A stretch of 64,000 nucleotides of DNA from Mesaphorura yosii (Eukaryota; Arthropoda; Collembola; Poduromorpha; Tullbergiidae): NCBI GenBank assembly GCA_009869945.1, contig WIXG01000005.1, forward strand, positions 62,001 to 126,000, read 5' to 3'. The notes below the pieces were generated by a model. The model saw nothing but the letters and a program-made list of their open reading frames with translations. It was not told where the DNA came from and did no database searches. Made by a program: the position numbers and the translations under genes. Positions 21,173 to 31,143 of this stretch are shown piece after piece (the first letter of the stretch is position 1; each line of letters starts with the position of its first letter).

Positions 21173-22192
21173 TACAGCTGAAATAGTATTTTCTACTTTG
21201 TGCCGAAAGTTGATACCGAAGTTAGATTATTTGCTGGACGCCAAACGTCTAAACGGGATAATGACACTAAAGGGAAGACTTCCTCATCGTCCTTTTCCTT
21301 GTCCGCGAACGTCCGTGCATGATGAAATGATAACTGACTCACGCAGTTGTATCTTGATGCCTTGCTGTTGGTGCCGTTGTGGTCGAAATCTGTGTGAGCA
21401 GCAGGAAGTAGGCCAGTTTAGATTTACACGGGCGGTGTGGTTCCAAATCTGTAGCCCAAACTACCAGGTACCAGGCTTACGCGAAAGATAATGGGTGACG
21501 GAAATAGGAACCGAAGTCAAACAAGTGGCGAATGGTTTACATGAAATAAACAAAGCGAGCACGGCGACTGACTTATGCTGTGCTCAAAGATTAGAGACAG
21601 GACAATGACCAGAAAAGTATACGGGCTATATCAATAACAGATATTCAGCGATAACACCAAGCGGACTCAACGCACATCAATTCTGTTACTCTTGATAGTG
21701 ATAATGAGCAGGAAATTGCACCATGCGAGCTGCCAAATGGTGACGGAGTGTAATATTGATGTAGTTTGGCTTGAAGAGAAATGCAATGCAAATACAAGGC
21801 TATCTTCACTTGGTGTTGGTATTAAATTGAAATTGATGATTGGCTAAATGTTTCCTGCTTAATAAACTTAATTTGGACCTTGTGCGCTGCACGTGTGCAT
21901 TCATCAGCACAGACTTGGCATGCCGGACAAGTTCTCGTCGTGTGTGTCCAAGCTGCACCGCAAAGTGGAGAAGCATGTCCAACAGATTTTTGACTTGCGA
22001 AACTCCGAGCATGAAGTTCAACCGGGCTGGCGGCATGACATGAAAGATGTGACGTTTAACCGAACAATCTGCTCGATTGGCCGATGTTTCCTGTCAAATT
22101 TAGAGATTGCGGAACTCATTAGTTGGAAGTTTCGGAATACAGAATAAAGATTTTAGCACCAATCTTCGAGGGAGTCGAACCTTCAAGTCGCG
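21173..22192. other. Intergenic region between member B and a gustatory receptor
   Basis: Opposing start codons flank about 1 kb. No exon is recognised; promoters for both neighbours are expected here. Confidence 0.45.
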
Positions 22193-23698
22193 ATGCCCTC
22201 AGCTTCGGACCCAAGCACAGTCCTTCCATTTCCAACCGAAGATAATGGCGAGAACGCGATTGGAAATCAGTCTCCAGAACTCGTGCTGCTGAATTGCGTG
22301 AAGCCGGTGATACTTTTGACAAAAATCGTGGGCCTGTTCCCAATGCAAATCAAGTCAAATGGAGCAATTCGTCACAAATGGTTCTCGAAGGAAGTTCTGT
22401 ACAGTTTCATTTACGTCGCTGGATTCTGCCTAACATCGGCCCTCTACCTGCCATTCGTATATTACACGATTCGTCAAATGAACAAGGAGCAAGGAGTCAT
22501 TAGCTTCGTGTCAGAGCTGGTCTTCTTCATGGGTCAATACTGTGCTTCAGTTTTGACTCTCATTCTGAACCAGTGGATGGTTCCCAGGATTGCACGCGCC
22601 TGGAATCAGATTCGCGACGTGTCCACGTATTTTGCGAGCAAGGAACGAAATTCTCATCAACTCTTCAAGACCACGTTCATCATCACGCGTTTGCTGTTTG
22701 TGACCTGGATATTGTTCGAAATCGGGTACATAATCTTCTTCTTCATTTACTTCTGGAAACATCTTGCAATCTACTTCAAGAAAGGTTCGAGCTCGTATTT
22801 CCCTTTCCATGTGGTCGGTTACATTGTGTTTTGTGGGCAAATGTCTGGCCACTTGCTGTACATCATTCTTGCTGGCACGTTTCTCCGAATGCTGGAACAT
22901 TCGCTGACTGGACTTCGCAAAACTGTACAGGCGGACGCAAAAAATGCCGATTCGTTTCTCAAATTGTACAACACGTACTGCTTTATTGAGAACATTATCA
23001 AGGAGCTGAATAGCACATTCGGAGTGTACACGATTATCCAAGTCATCGTGATGGTCTGCTCCACGTTAGTGAACTCCTATTTCACCATTTACTTCAGCCA
23101 GGGCCTGCATCGGGGCTTCATCATGGCCATGCCTCCTCTCCTGATTGTCCTGTACGTGCTCTGGCTGCTGCGGGTCTGCAACAGTGGAGAGAGGATACAA
23201 AATCAGGTACGTCGATCTGGCAGCGGCAGCAGAAATTAAGCTTCAACGCTTTAACGAATAATCTCCCTTGAAAATTGTCATTGCAGTCCAAGAAAGTCGT
23301 GAAAGCGATACAACATGCGGCCGTTTTTCAATTAAACGCAGAGGACAATCTGAAGGTCAGTCCGGGCATTTTAACTTTCGACATTTCTTTCACTTTTTTT
23401 ATGTCTTTGCTGTGAAGATCACTGGAATCCTCGGCAAACTCACTGGCTCTTACATAACCGTGACTGCGGCTGGGTTCCTGCTGATAAACCGAAGGCTAAT
23501 GGCCAAGGTTTGAGAATTAATCTTATGCAAAATGAAATTTCAATATTTGTTGCACGTTCACAGGCAGCTAAAGTGCAGCGTCAATTTACAATGCAGGTGA
23601 TCGTGACAATGACGACGTACCTGATCATTTTGGTACAGATTCGAGTCGATTTGAAGGATGACGAGGAACCTGCAGCTGTGACGCATCCATCGTCTTAA
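22193..23698 (+). CDS. Gustatory-type chemoreceptor 1 (7tm_7)
   Basis: Four exons (22193-23206, 23287-23355, 23418-23507, 23564-23698) join in frame, all introns phase 0, to 435 residues. The large first exon holds six hydrophobic helices, for example LLFVTWILFEIGYIIFFFIY and IIQVIVMVCSTLV. The last exons carry the arthropod gustatory receptor signature: GFLLINRRLMAK and TYLIILVQIR, corresponding to the TYhhhhhQF motif of TM7. No signal peptide is seen, as usual for these inverted-topology, ligand-gated channels. The three C-terminal phase-0 introns match the ancestral gustatory receptor arrangement. The ligand cannot be inferred. A paralogue with the same exon plan lies at 46619-48110. Confidence 0.88.
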
Positions 23699-24124: not shown

Positions 24125-26041
24125 ATGAACGGAAACAATCTGATGGACGACGCTGGTTTCGAGGACAGCTTGGATGGATCCCCGGTTATGGCACAAAAAG
24201 AAAATATGAAGCAAATGGCCGAGAACGGCGCCTATAAAACGCCTGTGTGGATGGATGACAATAGAAATTGCACAATTCCATCCGAAGGCAACGATGGCTC
24301 GGAGAAAGTTGAAGGCGATGCAGACAATATTACAAAACCTCGAGAACAAGTTGGTGATATTGTGTCAGAATCTGGGATGCACTGTGAAGTCCAATATCCA
24401 AAAGTGCTTGAGATTTTATACAAGAGAAGCTTCACCGACAGTGCAGTATCAGCCAGTGAAGTCTACAAAGAAGACGAAATTCAACGTTATATCAATTCTG
24501 CTGACCATCTTCATTCGAAGTCCAGTTGTGTCCATTTCAACTTGAATTCTCCAAGCTCGATTTTCGCAGTTGCCCCTTCAAATTCCCCTTGCTCCGGCGA
24601 ATACAGCCGATTCGACCAGCTGGACCCAACAATTTTGGAGTTTGAGTACTATGAACAGTTGGCAATCAATGCTCGGAACTTGAAGTTGAGTTTGGCCGCA
24701 CAGGTTTGTTTCTCCAACGATGTCTTTCTTAAATACTTGTGAAAAAGCGTTGGCTCAGATCTGCATTGTTTACATGCTGAGGTTTTGGAGAAAATCCTCC
24801 CCTTCTTCAGATTGCAAAACCTGTTAGAATGCCGTACTGTCTGCAAGAAATGGTACGACACGATTTCCTCTTCCCCGTACTTCTGGCAGCGGATATATGT
24901 CACTCGTCGAAGGGGTGACAAATTGACTTGGACAGATCTCATCAATTCAGAGCTGTGCGACGTGTACAACTTTCCGAGCTATCACATCGTCGAGTGCGAC
25001 CTCCGCGAGAGTGAAGTGCGCCTGTTCGTTGATATAATGGGAGGTCAGATCAAGGAGTTAAAATTGACAAGATGCGTGTACTCCGTTGCAACACTGCAGA
25101 ATCTCCTCACAAAGCTTCACAGTTTGGAATATTTGGAAATCACAGGCGTGGATCCCTCCGTTTTAGTTTCGGAGTCAATCTATCCCCCTAATCGAGACAT
25201 CAAGGCCATAAATTTGAAGCTGTCCACACTTGTTCTTGAATACCACGTCGGTCGCAGAGACCTCCAGCTCGAGCAATCTTCAGTGATCAGTTTTCTTCCC
25301 AGAAACTTGAGCGAAGCCGTTTTGTATGATATATTATCAAATTCCTGTTATCATCTGAAAATTATCAAGTTGATTGGCTGGGAGAGCAGAACATGCTTCA
25401 ATCTGCTGCAGCTGATTTCGTACCATTTACCATCGCCCACTTCGCCAGAAGAGCTACACTTTCTAAACGTACCACTCAAGAATCTGTCTTTCGCAGATTT
25501 CTATCCTCTGGCAAACGAATGCAACTCGCTCCGACTCAAGAAGCTATCAATCTGCCTTGCCAGTAACTGCTGGCGTCGCTTCCCAAAAGTGGACACAGTT
25601 TACGTCGACAAGATTGTGACAGAAATCCTTCAAGTGCAAAGTTCAAGCCTGACTCATGTGTACCTGGATCACTGCCCAGTCTCACAGAAGATTTTCACCG
25701 TCAAAATGCCGAAACTAAAAAGAGCGTCGATTCACGGAACCAAAATCAGTGTAGCCGATGTGTGCGGAAGTCCAAGCAACTTCGGTGCCTGGGGCCGTGG
25801 CAGTGTAACAATCGGAGTGGCGACGAGGATCTGTGAAGCATGCGCGGATTGCTCGGCACAGACTTTGATGAACAGCATCGTCCGGACATTCATAACATTG
25901 AAGTTTTGGGGCGCGGCCTGCTGTTGCGCCATACTGTCGTACACCATCGTGTTTCCTGATCAACCTCGCCTGCTCCTGTTTCTTGTGGGAACTCTGGTCT
26001 TCTTTGCATCCGTGAATTCTAACAACCAATTCCAAATGTAA
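24125..26041 (+). CDS. F-box/leucine-rich-repeat protein with hydrophobic C-terminus
   Basis: Two exons (24125-24703 and about 24782-26041) give about 612 residues. Residues 1-193 are acidic, Ser/Asn-rich and probably disordered. The F-box starts near the junction: VLEKILPFFRLQNLLECRTV, then CKKWYDTISSSPYFWQRIYV. F-boxes bind Skp1 to make the protein a substrate receptor of an SCF ubiquitin ligase. The following 330 residues contain irregular leucine-rich repeats (IKELKLTRC, LEYLEITG, LKKLSICL, LTHVYLDHC). Unexpectedly, the last 80 residues hold two hydrophobic stretches (FWGAACCCAILSYTIVF and LLLFLVGTLVFFASV), which suggest membrane anchoring. The exact acceptor is uncertain: two other AG sites nearby give the wrong frame with the best donor. 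Confidence 0.8.
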
Positions 26042-26881
26042 ACCAAAAATGTTGTAATAAATCCATCCCAGTGTCGTTCTGTCATTTGTCACTTTCATCC
26101 TGGAGGTTCCAGGGTTCGGCATGTGTTGTAGACACGACATTGCCCCGAAGCCCAAACAATCTTCAGTGGTTCTATATAGTAAATATGGTTAGTTGATTGA
26201 GACGATCCAGCTGGCTGGAAAAAGTCGGTCATAGGGCAATTTGCTGTTCATTAAGAAGGCTTCACCAAGAAGACGCATTCAACACTGCCTAAACCTTGAA
26301 ATCCATTACAATAGTACAATTACACGCAGTAAAGACGGACTCATCACTGTCGAAGCACAGATGCACGGAAAAGAGTCTTGTGCTATTGACTAATATCCTC
26401 TTACTCAGCGTAAATTCAAAACTGAGGATCAGCTGCGCACAAGTACTGTTCTCCAACTTCTGTCTTTGACGTTTGAGGTTTGACGACCAAGTTTTTGTAA
26501 CTGGTGAATTAAGTTGTAATTGCTAAAGGCGCTGGGCAAGTTGGGCTTGAATTTCCGTGACCACCTGTATCAAGTAAGTTAAACATTATATTCGATATCC
26601 GCAATTTATGCTCTTTATGCCGGTTAAGTTCGCGGAGACAGGACGCGAGTTTGATGTCTGTGTAATCAATTCGACAGCATGAAGGCCGTGAGGCCAAAGG
26701 TCGAACACTGAAGTGGAGTGATTCGAATATCTTTAGCTAATCTAGTGTGAGTATTCAGTGTTTTTCAAACCACATTCAATACGTCAGCCTTTGATTGTGT
26801 CTGCGTGTGTCAAATCGGTGCATGGGCATCAGTGTAAAGTTTGATAGCTTGTCGAATTCCTACTCACTGTGTGCTTTTAGG
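26042..26881. other. Spacer and 5' UTR of the TRM7-URM1 gene
   Basis: AATAAA at 26056-26061 lies 15 bases past the F-box gene stop. The acceptor tttag ends at 26880, one base before the first ATG context of TRM7-URM1, so that gene probably has a 5' UTR intron within this stretch. Confidence 0.5.
26056..26061 (+). terminator. AATAAA polyadenylation signal of the F-box gene
   Basis: Canonical hexamer immediately downstream of the stop codon at 26039-26041. Confidence 0.6.
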
Positions 26882-28218
26882 ATGGGGCGGTCGTCAAAAG
26901 ACAAGCGAGACATATTTTACAGATTGGCGAAGCAAGAAGGATGGAGGGCAAGAAGTGCTTATAAACTACTTCACCTCGATTACGAGTTGAAGCTGTTACA
27001 GAATGTTACAAGAGCCGTCGATTTATGTGCAGCACCCGGAAGTTGGAGTCAAGTGCTCGCTCAGTCAATGAAGCCATTGGAAAGTCCTGGCAAATGTATT
27101 GTTGCAGTCGATCTCCAAGAAATGGCTCCCATTCCTGGTGTACAATGTTTTAGTGGTGACATCACTTCGGATGAAACAGCTGGGAAAGTAATCCAGCTAC
27201 TGGGAAATGCAAAGGCCGACATTGTTGTTTGTGATGGTGCTCCAGATGTAAGAATTGTCATCTTTCCCAGTTATGCCTCGCTCGAGCTTACTTATAGAAT
27301 CATTTTGTGAATCCGCAGGTTACCGGATATCACATATTCGATGAACATTTGCAATCGGGACTATTTATGGCGGCCTTGAAAATATCTGTAAAAGTACTGG
27401 CAGAAAATGGCACGTTCCTCGCCAAGATATTTCGCTCAAGCGATGACGGCGTCAAATGGCTCTTCTCAAAAGCCCAACTTTTCTTCAAGGACGTCATGAT
27501 TGCTAAGCCCCGAAGTAGTCGTAGCACCAGCGTCGAAGCGTACATTGTTGGGAGACAGTTCAGCCCGCCCAGCAATTTCACCAGCTCTAATTTTGAAGAA
27601 ATTCTGCAAGGAGGTCAGAAATTGCTGGAAAAACTGTCACAATTGACGGAAACGATCTGCGGAAAAGAAGATCTTGAGTCGGATGTCAGTTACCCTTCCA
27701 GCATATTGATAGACCACAAGTACGAGTTCTCTGTGCCGCCTCCGAACTTGGAGGTTCTTACCGAAGGATACAGCGCGGGGTATGAGCCACCGGGGCCGGA
27801 GCTTTCCAATTTGCCTTCATATGAAGACGCGTTGCTTGCAAGAAATACGAGGAAATTACTAAGCATGCAAATTAAATCGGGCGAGAAAAGTGAAGTTGAA
27901 CCTGAAGCTCCTGGAAACACAAGAACATTGAAGATTTCGTTTGGTGGAGGCGCCGAAAATCTCGTGAACTGCGGTCGAGAAATTACTGTCAGCTACCCTG
28001 CATCAGAAAAGTATTCGTTTGAACTTCGTGGCGTGCTTAATCATATCAAAGACTACTTCATTGTTGACCGTCCGGAATTATTCATGAAAGACGATGATGT
28101 GAGACCTGGAATTTTGGTGCTAATCAATGACACTGATTGGGAAATTCTGGACAAACTAGACTACGAAGTACAGGAAGGAGACTCGATCGCATTTATATCC
28201 ACTTTACATGGAGGCTGA
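26882..28218 (+). CDS. FTSJ1-URM1: TRM7 (FTSJ1) tRNA 2'-O-methyltransferase fused to URM1
   Basis: Two exons (26882-27247, 27319-28218), phase-0 intron, 421 residues. Residues 1 to about 310 are a full-length TRM7/FTSJ1, which 2'-O-methylates tRNA positions 32 and 34. They include [23 protein letters not shown] motif [28 protein letters not shown] and [13 protein letters not shown]. The catalytic K-D-K-E tetrad is visible as Lys28, Asp118, Lys158 and Glu195. The usual TRM7 tail ([16 protein letters not shown]) is present. After a short linker with no stop, residues 325-421 are a complete URM1: [43 protein letters not shown] and the C-terminal STLHGG. URM1 is the ubiquitin-like sulfur carrier for 2-thiolation of wobble uridine, and needs its exposed C-terminal Gly-Gly, which is retained. 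The fusion is uninterrupted within one exon. An internal Met (SMQIKSGEK) just before the URM1 part could allow separate initiation. Confidence 0.95.
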
Positions 28219-28334: not shown

Positions 28335-28967
28335 TCATCTTGCACTCTGACTCTCGACATTTTCCGCCGAATTATATTTTACATAGTCTTCGTACGAGGG
28401 AGGAGGTTCGTCCATGTCTATGTCTATCACTGCAGGAGTGGAGACTTCGTACGCGGTGCTGAATGGCGGAGGTGCAGAGTCAACCGCCTGTTGAGATCTT
28501 TCATTTCGTGTTTGGTCTCTTGGCATTTGGATTTCATACACGCCGAGCGCAATGGTATCACCCGCCCGCGAGATTGTGGTTATGCGCACGGCTCGCGTGA
28601 CTCCTCCTGGTCGATTTGGCCGATTTCGTGCATTTCTTGCTTGACCTGCGAAAAGACAGCATCAGCATCGGGTAAAGGAATAATTCCAAAGGAGTGTGCT
28701 TGGAGCCCACGATTCCCATGATAGGACTTACTTAAGAAGAATGCCTGTCTCTGTCTAGCCAGTTGGTGTTCTGTCGTGATATGGTCTTCAAACGCCCGTC
28801 TCAAACCCCGGCAGCATACAACTATTATCTGGAAACGAATTATTGTGCGGGTGTCAAGAGTAATGAATTCACAAATGTGTCCAAGAAAAGCCGTGTTTAG
28901 TACTTACGACGAAAATGACGATAACGATAATCGCAATGACCAGCAATTCCATGAGATCCTTCGCCAT
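28335..28967 (-). CDS. PPxY membrane-adaptor family member C
   Basis: Three exons (28967-28908, 28828-28732, 28645-28335) join in frame to 155 residues. Exon 1 (MAKDLMELLVIAIIVIVIFV) is nearly all transmembrane. Exon 2 begins IIVVCCRGLRRAFEDH, giving a Cys pair and basic residues just inside the membrane. Exon 3 is basic, then holds the bipartite motif: PPPFSTAYEV, an acidic VIDIDMDE spacer and EPPPSYEDYVKY. The final PPSY is a class I WW-domain ligand and the following YVKY could also act as an endocytic tyrosine signal. It is tail-to-tail with TRM7-URM1, with only 116 bases between stop codons. Confidence 0.82.
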
Positions 28968-30486: not shown

Positions 30487-31143
30487 TCAGCAGTTCCCAT
30501 CTCCATGCGTCTGCGTTGTCGTCGTCGACTTGCTTACGGCCTCTCCGCAGCTGATGCATAAGCTCGGTTGTATCACGCTTGACGAAATGAGGACATTGTT
30601 GCTGTAATTACTACTCTGAATTTGCCTTGAAGAGCTGTTGTGTTCTGGAGGTAGCATGATGGTGTGCGAATCATTCGAGTACCTCCTCACATACTCTTCG
30701 TACGATGGCAGCTGAACGTCCTCCATGTCCACGACTGAGATCGGGGCTTTCATTGAGACTGCTTCGTCAAACTTTGGCGGAGGCTCAGTGGCTAGAAAAA
30801 AGAAGAGGGAAAAAAGTCAGTACTTGCACATATTAACTAATTCGTTCCTTATCTTTCATTAACACCTTACCTCTTTGTCTTCTGGCAATATTTTCGGCAA
30901 TGAACTGTTCCCATCTGGTCGATTCGTCAGAGCGTGGCGAGAAACAACTTCGAATCTGAATATCACAAGAAACGAAGTGAAAACTTATACGAAACGATGA
31001 AACCCTCGTCGCTATGACTGAGTTTCAGATTTTCTCAACACGCTTACCACGAATCTAATTGTAAGTATCAGCACTAGCACGGCGTAGCCGCCGACCAAGA
31101 TGAAGATCACGATACGAGCCCACTTCTCGGCGTCCGTAGTCAT
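30487..31143 (-). CDS. PPxY/LPSY membrane-adaptor family member D
   Basis: Three exons (31143-31048, 30955-30871, 30791-30487) join in frame to 161 residues. Exon 1 has a short polar N-terminus (MTTDAEKWAR) and a helix (IVIFILVGGYAVLVLILTI) ending RFV at the phase-0 junction. Exon 2 is basic (IRSCFSPRSDES, ENIARRQR). Exon 3 opens with TEPPPKFDEAVSM, then VVDMEDVQLPSYEEYVRRY. Here the distal motif is LPSY, a Nedd4 WW ligand known from Commissureless. The tail is Ser/Asn/Thr-rich and contains a CISCGE pair of Cys. Exon 1 and its junction closely resemble member E. Confidence 0.82.

Follow-up and report, generated by a model that had tools for sequence, protein, structure and literature searches.

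A predicted in-frame TRM7–URM1 fusion gene occurs in two diverged copies in the collembolan Mesaphorura yosii

In UBA52 and FAU, a ubiquitin-like (Ubl) domain is encoded in frame with another protein; the Ubl is N-terminal and is released after Gly-Gly, the site at which ubiquitin-precursor fusions are cut. Urm1 has been studied as a free protein, both as a sulfur carrier and as a modifier. Sulfur carriers fused to enzymes have been described as ThiS–ThiG and MoaD–MoaE, and as ThiS on sulfite reductase and MoaD on aldehyde ferredoxin oxidoreductase (PMC1779556). In Thaumarchaea, a Ubl of the sulfur-carrier type is carried by a tRNA-modification subunit, Cgi121 of KEOPS, in an arrangement reported as conserved in that lineage (PMC2948915). 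As for the tRNA methyltransferase TRM7, Drosophila is reported to have two enzymes, which serve positions 32 and 34 of tRNA, respectively (PMC7038984; PMC12145424). Here, a gene of Mesaphorura yosii is described in which a complete TRM7 is predicted to run in frame into a complete URM1, without an intervening stop.

The window, that is, the whole 64-kb stretch analyzed, lies in contig C5 (668,160 bases) of a 93-Mb assembly with 1127 contigs. Two forward open frames, 26795–27310 and 27298–28218, stand in different reading frames and are united by a predicted GT–AG intron inside the TRM7 half, with the ends GTAAGA and CCGCAG, located directly after D122 (Table 1). The spliced product predicted from this model has 421 residues and a mass of 46.6 kDa. 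Exon 2 is free of stops: the remainder of TRM7 with its tail is followed by about 20 linker residues and by URM1, ending with STLHGG and the stop codon. An earlier, sequence-only reading had placed the gene correctly at 26882–28218, but had described one uninterrupted reading frame, which is wrong, as the 71-nt intron splits the TRM7 half between two different frames. It had also proposed that neither a stop nor an intron separates the two halves: there is indeed no stop, and a splice-pair scan turned up no intron candidate where the halves of the window copy meet, whereas a predicted intron does lie within the TRM7 half. Its main point, an in-frame TRM7–URM1 fusion, stands, and the predicted gene is, to judge from the sequence, a genuine fusion. 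A chance open frame is excluded because both domains give strong profile matches (E-values in Table 1) and because a second, diverged copy has the same architecture. A weaker hexamer, ATTAAA, at 27871 within the linker of the window copy counts against reading the gene as a fused transcript.

Table 1. Features of the window copy of the predicted TRM7–URM1 fusion gene (positions in the window)
Feature	Position	Strand	Basis
Exon 1, TRM7 residues 1–122 with K28, D118, S25, S54, D77 and D93	26882..27247	+	Open frame, splice model, alignment
Intron, 71 nt, phase 0	27248..27318	+	Predicted; 71-nt intron after the same codon in the second copy
Exon 2, TRM7 residues 123–303, linker and URM1; stop codon 28216–28218	27319..28218	+	Stop-free frame 27298–28218
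FtsJ methyltransferase domain, residues 21–203, split by the intron	26942..27561	+	PF01728 E 2.5e-48; 8y2o chain B E 7.1e-72
CG..(L/F)(E/D)SD..Y motif, residues 236–247	27658..27693	+	Tail alignment; corresponds to human THADA-binding Cys238–Tyr250 as given in PMC12145424
TRM7 C-terminal tail, residues 204–303, ending P-x-Y-x-x-A...R...KL	27562..27861	+	Alignment with yeast Trm7
Linker, residues 304–325, with non-conserved Met305 and without a junction Gly-Gly	27862..27927	+	Comparison of the two copies
URM1 domain, residues 326–421, C-terminal STLHGG	27928..28215	+	PF09138 E 1.7e-29; 1xo3 E 2e-27 (URM1 part alone)
AATAAA, poly(A)-signal-like hexamer, the first past the start codon	28326..28331	+	Sequence scan

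The surroundings of the gene contain further coding regions. Just upstream, a 432-residue open frame at 24785–26041 encodes an F-box-like protein (E 1e-6), and a gustatory-type 7tm_7 chemoreceptor is encoded in a single open frame at 22157–23239 (E 1.7e-14). Downstream, open frames at 28335–28589 and 30487–30753 (minus) contain the similar stretches PPPSYEDYV and LPSYEEYV; they have no Pfam match and possibly encode related PY-motif proteins. An Rfam search of the 64-kb window gave no matches, and neither did a search with COX1. In the assembly, TTAGG arrays gave 40 overlapping matches (26 forward and 14 reverse) compared with none in a backward control; together with the 7tm_7 gene, this fits an arthropod. 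On small contigs (C900, C936, C1051, C1061 and others) the arrays occupy internal as well as terminal positions, and are perhaps telomere-associated elements.

The TRM7 half was assigned by comparison with Pfam and with solved structures. The FtsJ family (Pfam PF01728) matches the spliced protein, and the best solved-structure match is chain B of 8y2o, the FTSJ1 of an FTSJ1–THADA complex, followed by yeast Trm7 (6jp6, E 1.3e-61); SPB1 comes next at 2.2e-38, with FTSJ3 at about 1e-38. By these E-values, the TRM7 half is nearer to FTSJ1/Trm7 than to FTSJ3/SPB1 or MRM2. In a four-sequence alignment of both copies, human FTSJ1 and yeast Trm7, the residues K28, D118, K158 and E195 are invariant, as are the S-adenosylmethionine (SAM) residues S25, S54, D77 and D93. 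These roles are taken from the human residues reported as catalytic (28, 116, 156 and 191) and SAM-binding (25, 54, 75 and 91) (PMC12145424). The proposal of a full-length TRM7 with the K28–D118–K158–E195 tetrad and its usual tail is thus borne out by the FtsJ match and the invariant tetrad. In both copies, two extra residues follow the catalytic-lysine strand (window 27442–27447), where human and yeast TRM7 have RGRD--V; SPB1 and FTSJ3 share a similar longer form.

The TRM7 tail is also recognizable. The Cys-Gly...Ser-Asp...Tyr motif, kept in both copies, aligns with the human stretch 238–250 described as binding THADA (PMC12145424), and the tail ends with a P-x-Y...R...KL motif like that near the end of yeast Trm7. 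Right before the conserved Cys-Gly, about eight residues are missing in both copies (human RIIVPFVT, yeast RNIAEFMA) in a region that aligns poorly. The missing residues belong to a stretch that has been reported to bind WDR6; as the alignment there is weak, a change in WDR6 binding is no more than suggested.

The URM1 half is complete. The Urm1 family (Pfam PF09138) matches residues 326–421 over profile positions 2–96 of 96, and among solved structures the URM1 part searched alone matches 1xo3. The RPGILVLxND–DWE core is present, and the C-terminal Gly-Gly is free in both copies, STLHGG being followed by the stop codon. The full-length profile match and the stop right after STLHGG agree with the earlier proposal of a complete URM1 with a retained free Gly-Gly. 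Two single-sequence structure predictions (mean pLDDT 38.4 and 42.8) were too poor to use.

A second fusion copy is located on contig C36 (349,091 bases). It encodes 411 residues, is 62% identical to the window copy, has the same junction and likewise ends with STLHGG and a stop; a 71-nt intron follows the same codon. Neither copy is a retrocopy, because the intron is common to both. The TRM7 core is the most similar between the copies (78% identity), followed by URM1 (59%) and by the tail and linker (34%); the corresponding dN values are 0.145, 0.296 and 0.69. Synonymous sites are saturated (proportion 0.73–0.92), and therefore no dN/dS ratio is given. The TRM7 and URM1 halves are constrained in both copies; the tail and linker are much looser, yet open in both. 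The copies were aligned as proteins, so that gaps are whole codons by construction, and the alignment shows that the two copies stay open and are in register at either end; it does not show that the individual indels were triplets. Quartet sites pairing the two copies number 7 (vs 2 and 1) in URM1 and 15 (vs 1 and 2) in TRM7, a pattern as expected for a single fusion followed by duplication. The URM1 halves are scarcely closer to each other (59% identity) than to mouse URM1 (54% and 50%), so that one of them may be losing or changing function. When the 64-kb window was compared with 100 kb of C36, a single weak match (71 residues, 30%, E 6.7e-5) appeared besides the fused gene and its antisense shadows; apart from this match, no shared neighbour genes were found in the comparison.

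A search for stand-alone genes argues strongly for the fusion. In the 93-Mb assembly, PF09138 has two matches at E<=0.001 and still only these two at E<=10, and both are fused. PF01728 has 15 matches, four of which are exons of the two fused genes. In tblastn, the next-best FtsJ genes are FTSJ3-like (C113, 34% to TRM7) and MRM2-like (C955), labels that were assigned from motifs. For five FtsJ matches (L007 and L011–L014), similarity to TRM7 was at E 0.2 or worse. The FtsJ matches compared, which comprised all but three weak places (on C13, on C281 and the second on C296), included no stand-alone TRM7. The profile search runs exon by exon, so that a stand-alone gene cut by introns into short pieces, or one that is unassembled, could escape it; its sensitivity is illustrated by CTU1 in the same genome, which was missed by PF01171 and found by TIGR00269.

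Enzymes acting with URM1 and TRM7 are encoded in the same genome. MOCS3/Uba4, on C80, has ThiF and rhodanese domains, with Uba4 as the best solved match and MOCS3 as that of the rhodanese part. CTU1, on C104, has the TIGR00269 match, an NcsA-type match and a zinc ribbon. CTU2, on C10, is weaker (E 9.9e-6, over the cut-off), and a Pfam scan of one CTU2 open frame gave no family. THADA lies on C234. Each of FTSJ3-like, MRM2-like, MOCS3, CTU1, CTU2 and THADA occurs at one place in the assembly. Separately, a TtcA-like PP-loop protein (L035; G000:C113:8109-8423, minus) matches the NCBIfam tRNA 2-thiocytidine(32) synthetase model at E 4.2e-42, below the model cut-off, and a long Gln-rich open frame lies directly upstream of it. 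A candidate position-32 thiolation enzyme in an animal-type genome deserves attention.

Fused relatives were sought in contigs of prokaryotes and viruses. Of the candidate stretches in contigs of bacteria and archaea, 0 of 136 matched with the full-length query and 1 of 206 with the URM1 query; in viral contigs, the counts were 0 of 74 (full-length), 2 of 54 (URM1; both partial and weak) and 0 of 39 (TRM7). None of the three prokaryotic or viral URM1 loci has a TRM7 match. As these collections do not contain animals as such, the searches say little about other arthropods. A 3.6-kb contig of a Bacteriovorax genome bin (L054) carries an interrupted URM1 with an STLHGG end beside a eukaryotic-looking protein kinase, and is probably contamination from a eukaryote.

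In the account that we consider likely, a single TRM7–URM1 fusion was followed by duplication and gave rise to proteins with both functions, in which URM1 is charged without being detached from TRM7. A TRM7/FTSJ1 gene and a URM1 gene downstream of it would have become a single gene by loss of the TRM7 stop, with a linker of about 20 residues joining the two. The fused gene would later have been duplicated and both copies retained, each being translated as one predicted chain of 46–47 kDa. The N-terminal half would 2'-O-methylate anticodon-loop positions of tRNA with THADA and perhaps also WDR6. MOCS3 would adenylate and thiocarboxylate the free Gly-Gly of the attached URM1, which would then pass sulfur to CTU1–CTU2 for 2-thiolation of U34. 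Since every URM1 detected belongs to a fusion, and the genome encodes the enzymes that charge URM1 and accept its sulfur, the simplest account is that the fused URM1 is used as such. An ordinary mechanism is the most likely, and a more interesting one may yet apply. Any benefit would more probably lie in fixed co-expression or co-localization than in channelling on a single tRNA, as the tRNAs on which TRM7 methylation and U34 thiolation mainly act are largely different. The fusion may also be a tolerated passenger that fixes co-expression.

N-terminal additions to Urm1 have been used in other organisms. Urm1-null flies are made viable and fertile again by Flag-Urm1 (PMC5617222), HA-Urm1 is thiocarboxylated by Uba4 in yeast (PMC12645042), and GST-CtUrm1 interacts with Uba4 (PMC7527816), the N-terminal position of the tag being read from the construct name in each of these reports. 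In those systems, N-terminal tags or partners are compatible with Urm1 function.

The alternative that survives best, although we think it rather unlikely, is that the fused frame is translated but URM1 is freed by proteolysis, or is made from an internal promoter or start, and that the free form alone works. The junction is indeed loosely constrained, as its dN indicates, and the window copy has an in-frame Met305 just ahead of URM1. This Met has no counterpart in the C36 copy, where the nearest upstream in-frame Mets, 271 and 279, lie within the TRM7 tail; moreover, URM1 is preceded by 22 ATGs in one predicted mRNA and by 14 in the other, which disfavors leaky scanning. Internal initiation at the Met before URM1, which the sequence-only reading had offered as one route, is weakened on both counts and is not favored. 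As for processing, Gly-Gly dipeptides occur in the window copy at 220, 331, 332 and 420 and none is located at the junction; the layout of ubiquitin-type precursors, an N-terminal Ubl with a Gly-Gly processing site, does not apply, since URM1 is C-terminal.

A second alternative, which we regard as doubtful, is functional coupling: TRM7 with THADA/WDR6 might hold the anticodon loop while URM1 supplies sulfur there, or URM1 charging might regulate TRM7. Both pathways act on the anticodon loop, THADA, MOCS3, CTU1 and CTU2 are all in the genome, and the fusion has been retained in two diverged copies. However, the sulfur acceptor is CTU1–CTU2 rather than TRM7, and the two pathways have different main tRNA targets; the linker shows little conservation and is short, and drift can fix a fusion without any coupling. 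In favor of coupling, the Ubl–Cgi121 fusion, which also involves a tRNA-modification subunit, is described as conserved in Thaumarchaea (PMC2948915). A bolder form of this idea, which we offer only as speculation and think improbable as a whole, is that in this lineage the sulfur carrier for tRNA thiolation, existing only in covalent fusion with the anticodon-loop methyltransferase, imposes obligate co-production and physical coupling of wobble thiolation and ribose methylation, and that the two copies have divided positions 32 and 34 as well as the URM1 roles (thiolation vs protein conjugation) between them.

It is quite improbable that splicing disrupts or excises the junction, in either copy or in both, such that TRM7 and URM1 are not one chain. 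In the C36 copy, six candidate splice pairs lie in the tail and linker, three of them not a multiple of three in length, and splicing at such pairs could change or disrupt the fusion there; the same scan finds none in the window copy. One of the six, a 45-nt GTAAGA...GTCAG pair, is a multiple of three, so that the fusion would be kept, and its removal would delete the KL of the R...KL motif that yeast Trm7 also has. This candidate intron (L001:1439-1483; GTAAGA...GTGTCAG) lies in the C36 linker and keeps the frame either way.

An assembly artefact or a second species within the assembly, to which the 1127 contigs and the two copies of the fused gene might point, is very unlikely indeed, given that the FTSJ3-like, MRM2-like, MOCS3, CTU1, CTU2 and THADA genes are each found at a single place and that the tetranucleotide profiles of the C5 and C36 regions correlate at 0.92–0.97; misassembly of the junction, which the sequence-only reading had named among the things that would overturn the fusion, is rejected as very unlikely because the same junction is found twice, in diverged form, on two large contigs.

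The tethering of every detectable URM1 to a tRNA methyltransferase constitutes a natural experiment on whether URM1 must diffuse freely for charging and sulfur delivery. It also raises the question of whether the methylation and thiolation machineries meet, and makes a physical link between the two pathways testable; a 46-kDa carrier would stand out wherever thiocarboxylated protein is resolved on a gel. Should the fusion be no more than a passenger that is tolerated, it would still clearly mark common descent among related arthropods.

Compared with TRM7/FTSJ1 (yeast Trm7, human FTSJ1 and Drosophila CG7009 and CG5220), the N-terminal half is the same methyltransferase, with the same tetrad, SAM residues, THADA-type Cys motif and P-x-Y...R...KL end; the fused copies differ in their C-terminal URM1 and in lacking the residues before Cys-Gly that the human and yeast enzymes have. 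The duplication parallels the two TRM7 enzymes of Drosophila. The fly Nm34 enzyme, as described, is without the Cys of the motif, whereas both fused copies keep it, and therefore no fly-like 32/34 split is indicated by that residue. As for URM1, the full-length domain, STLHGG and the RPGILVLxND–DWE core are as in known systems, and MOCS3, CTU1 and CTU2 are present here too; the usual URM1, however, is a free 11-kDa protein, whereas here about 300 residues of TRM7 stand at its N-terminus, in two diverged copies.

In a survey of 2'-O-methyltransferase domains in 198 genomes, Spb1-C and DUF3381 are mentioned together with FtsJ, and the figure leaves out rare combinations (PMC12155479). No description of a TRM7–URM1 fusion was found in the literature searched, which excluded preprints, subscription journals and protein databases, and within that scope the result agrees with the sequence-only reading, which knew of none. 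Unlike UBA52 and FAU, with their N-terminal Ubl and Gly-Gly cut, the gene described here has URM1 at the C-terminus and a junction without Gly-Gly. The ThiS–sulfite reductase and MoaD–aldehyde ferredoxin oxidoreductase fusions have a C-terminal carrier, like URM1 here, but the sulfur-carrier fusions, as reported, are prokaryotic, and, unlike TRM7, ThiG and MoaE are direct partners in sulfur transfer (PMC1779556). The nearest precedent is Cgi121–Ubl, from which the present gene differs in that the former is archaeal, has another Ubl and, in the account given, involves no methyltransferase, Cgi121 belonging to the KEOPS complex required for t6A (PMC2948915). The parts are known, and the combination of TRM7 with URM1 in an animal is new to the literature searched.
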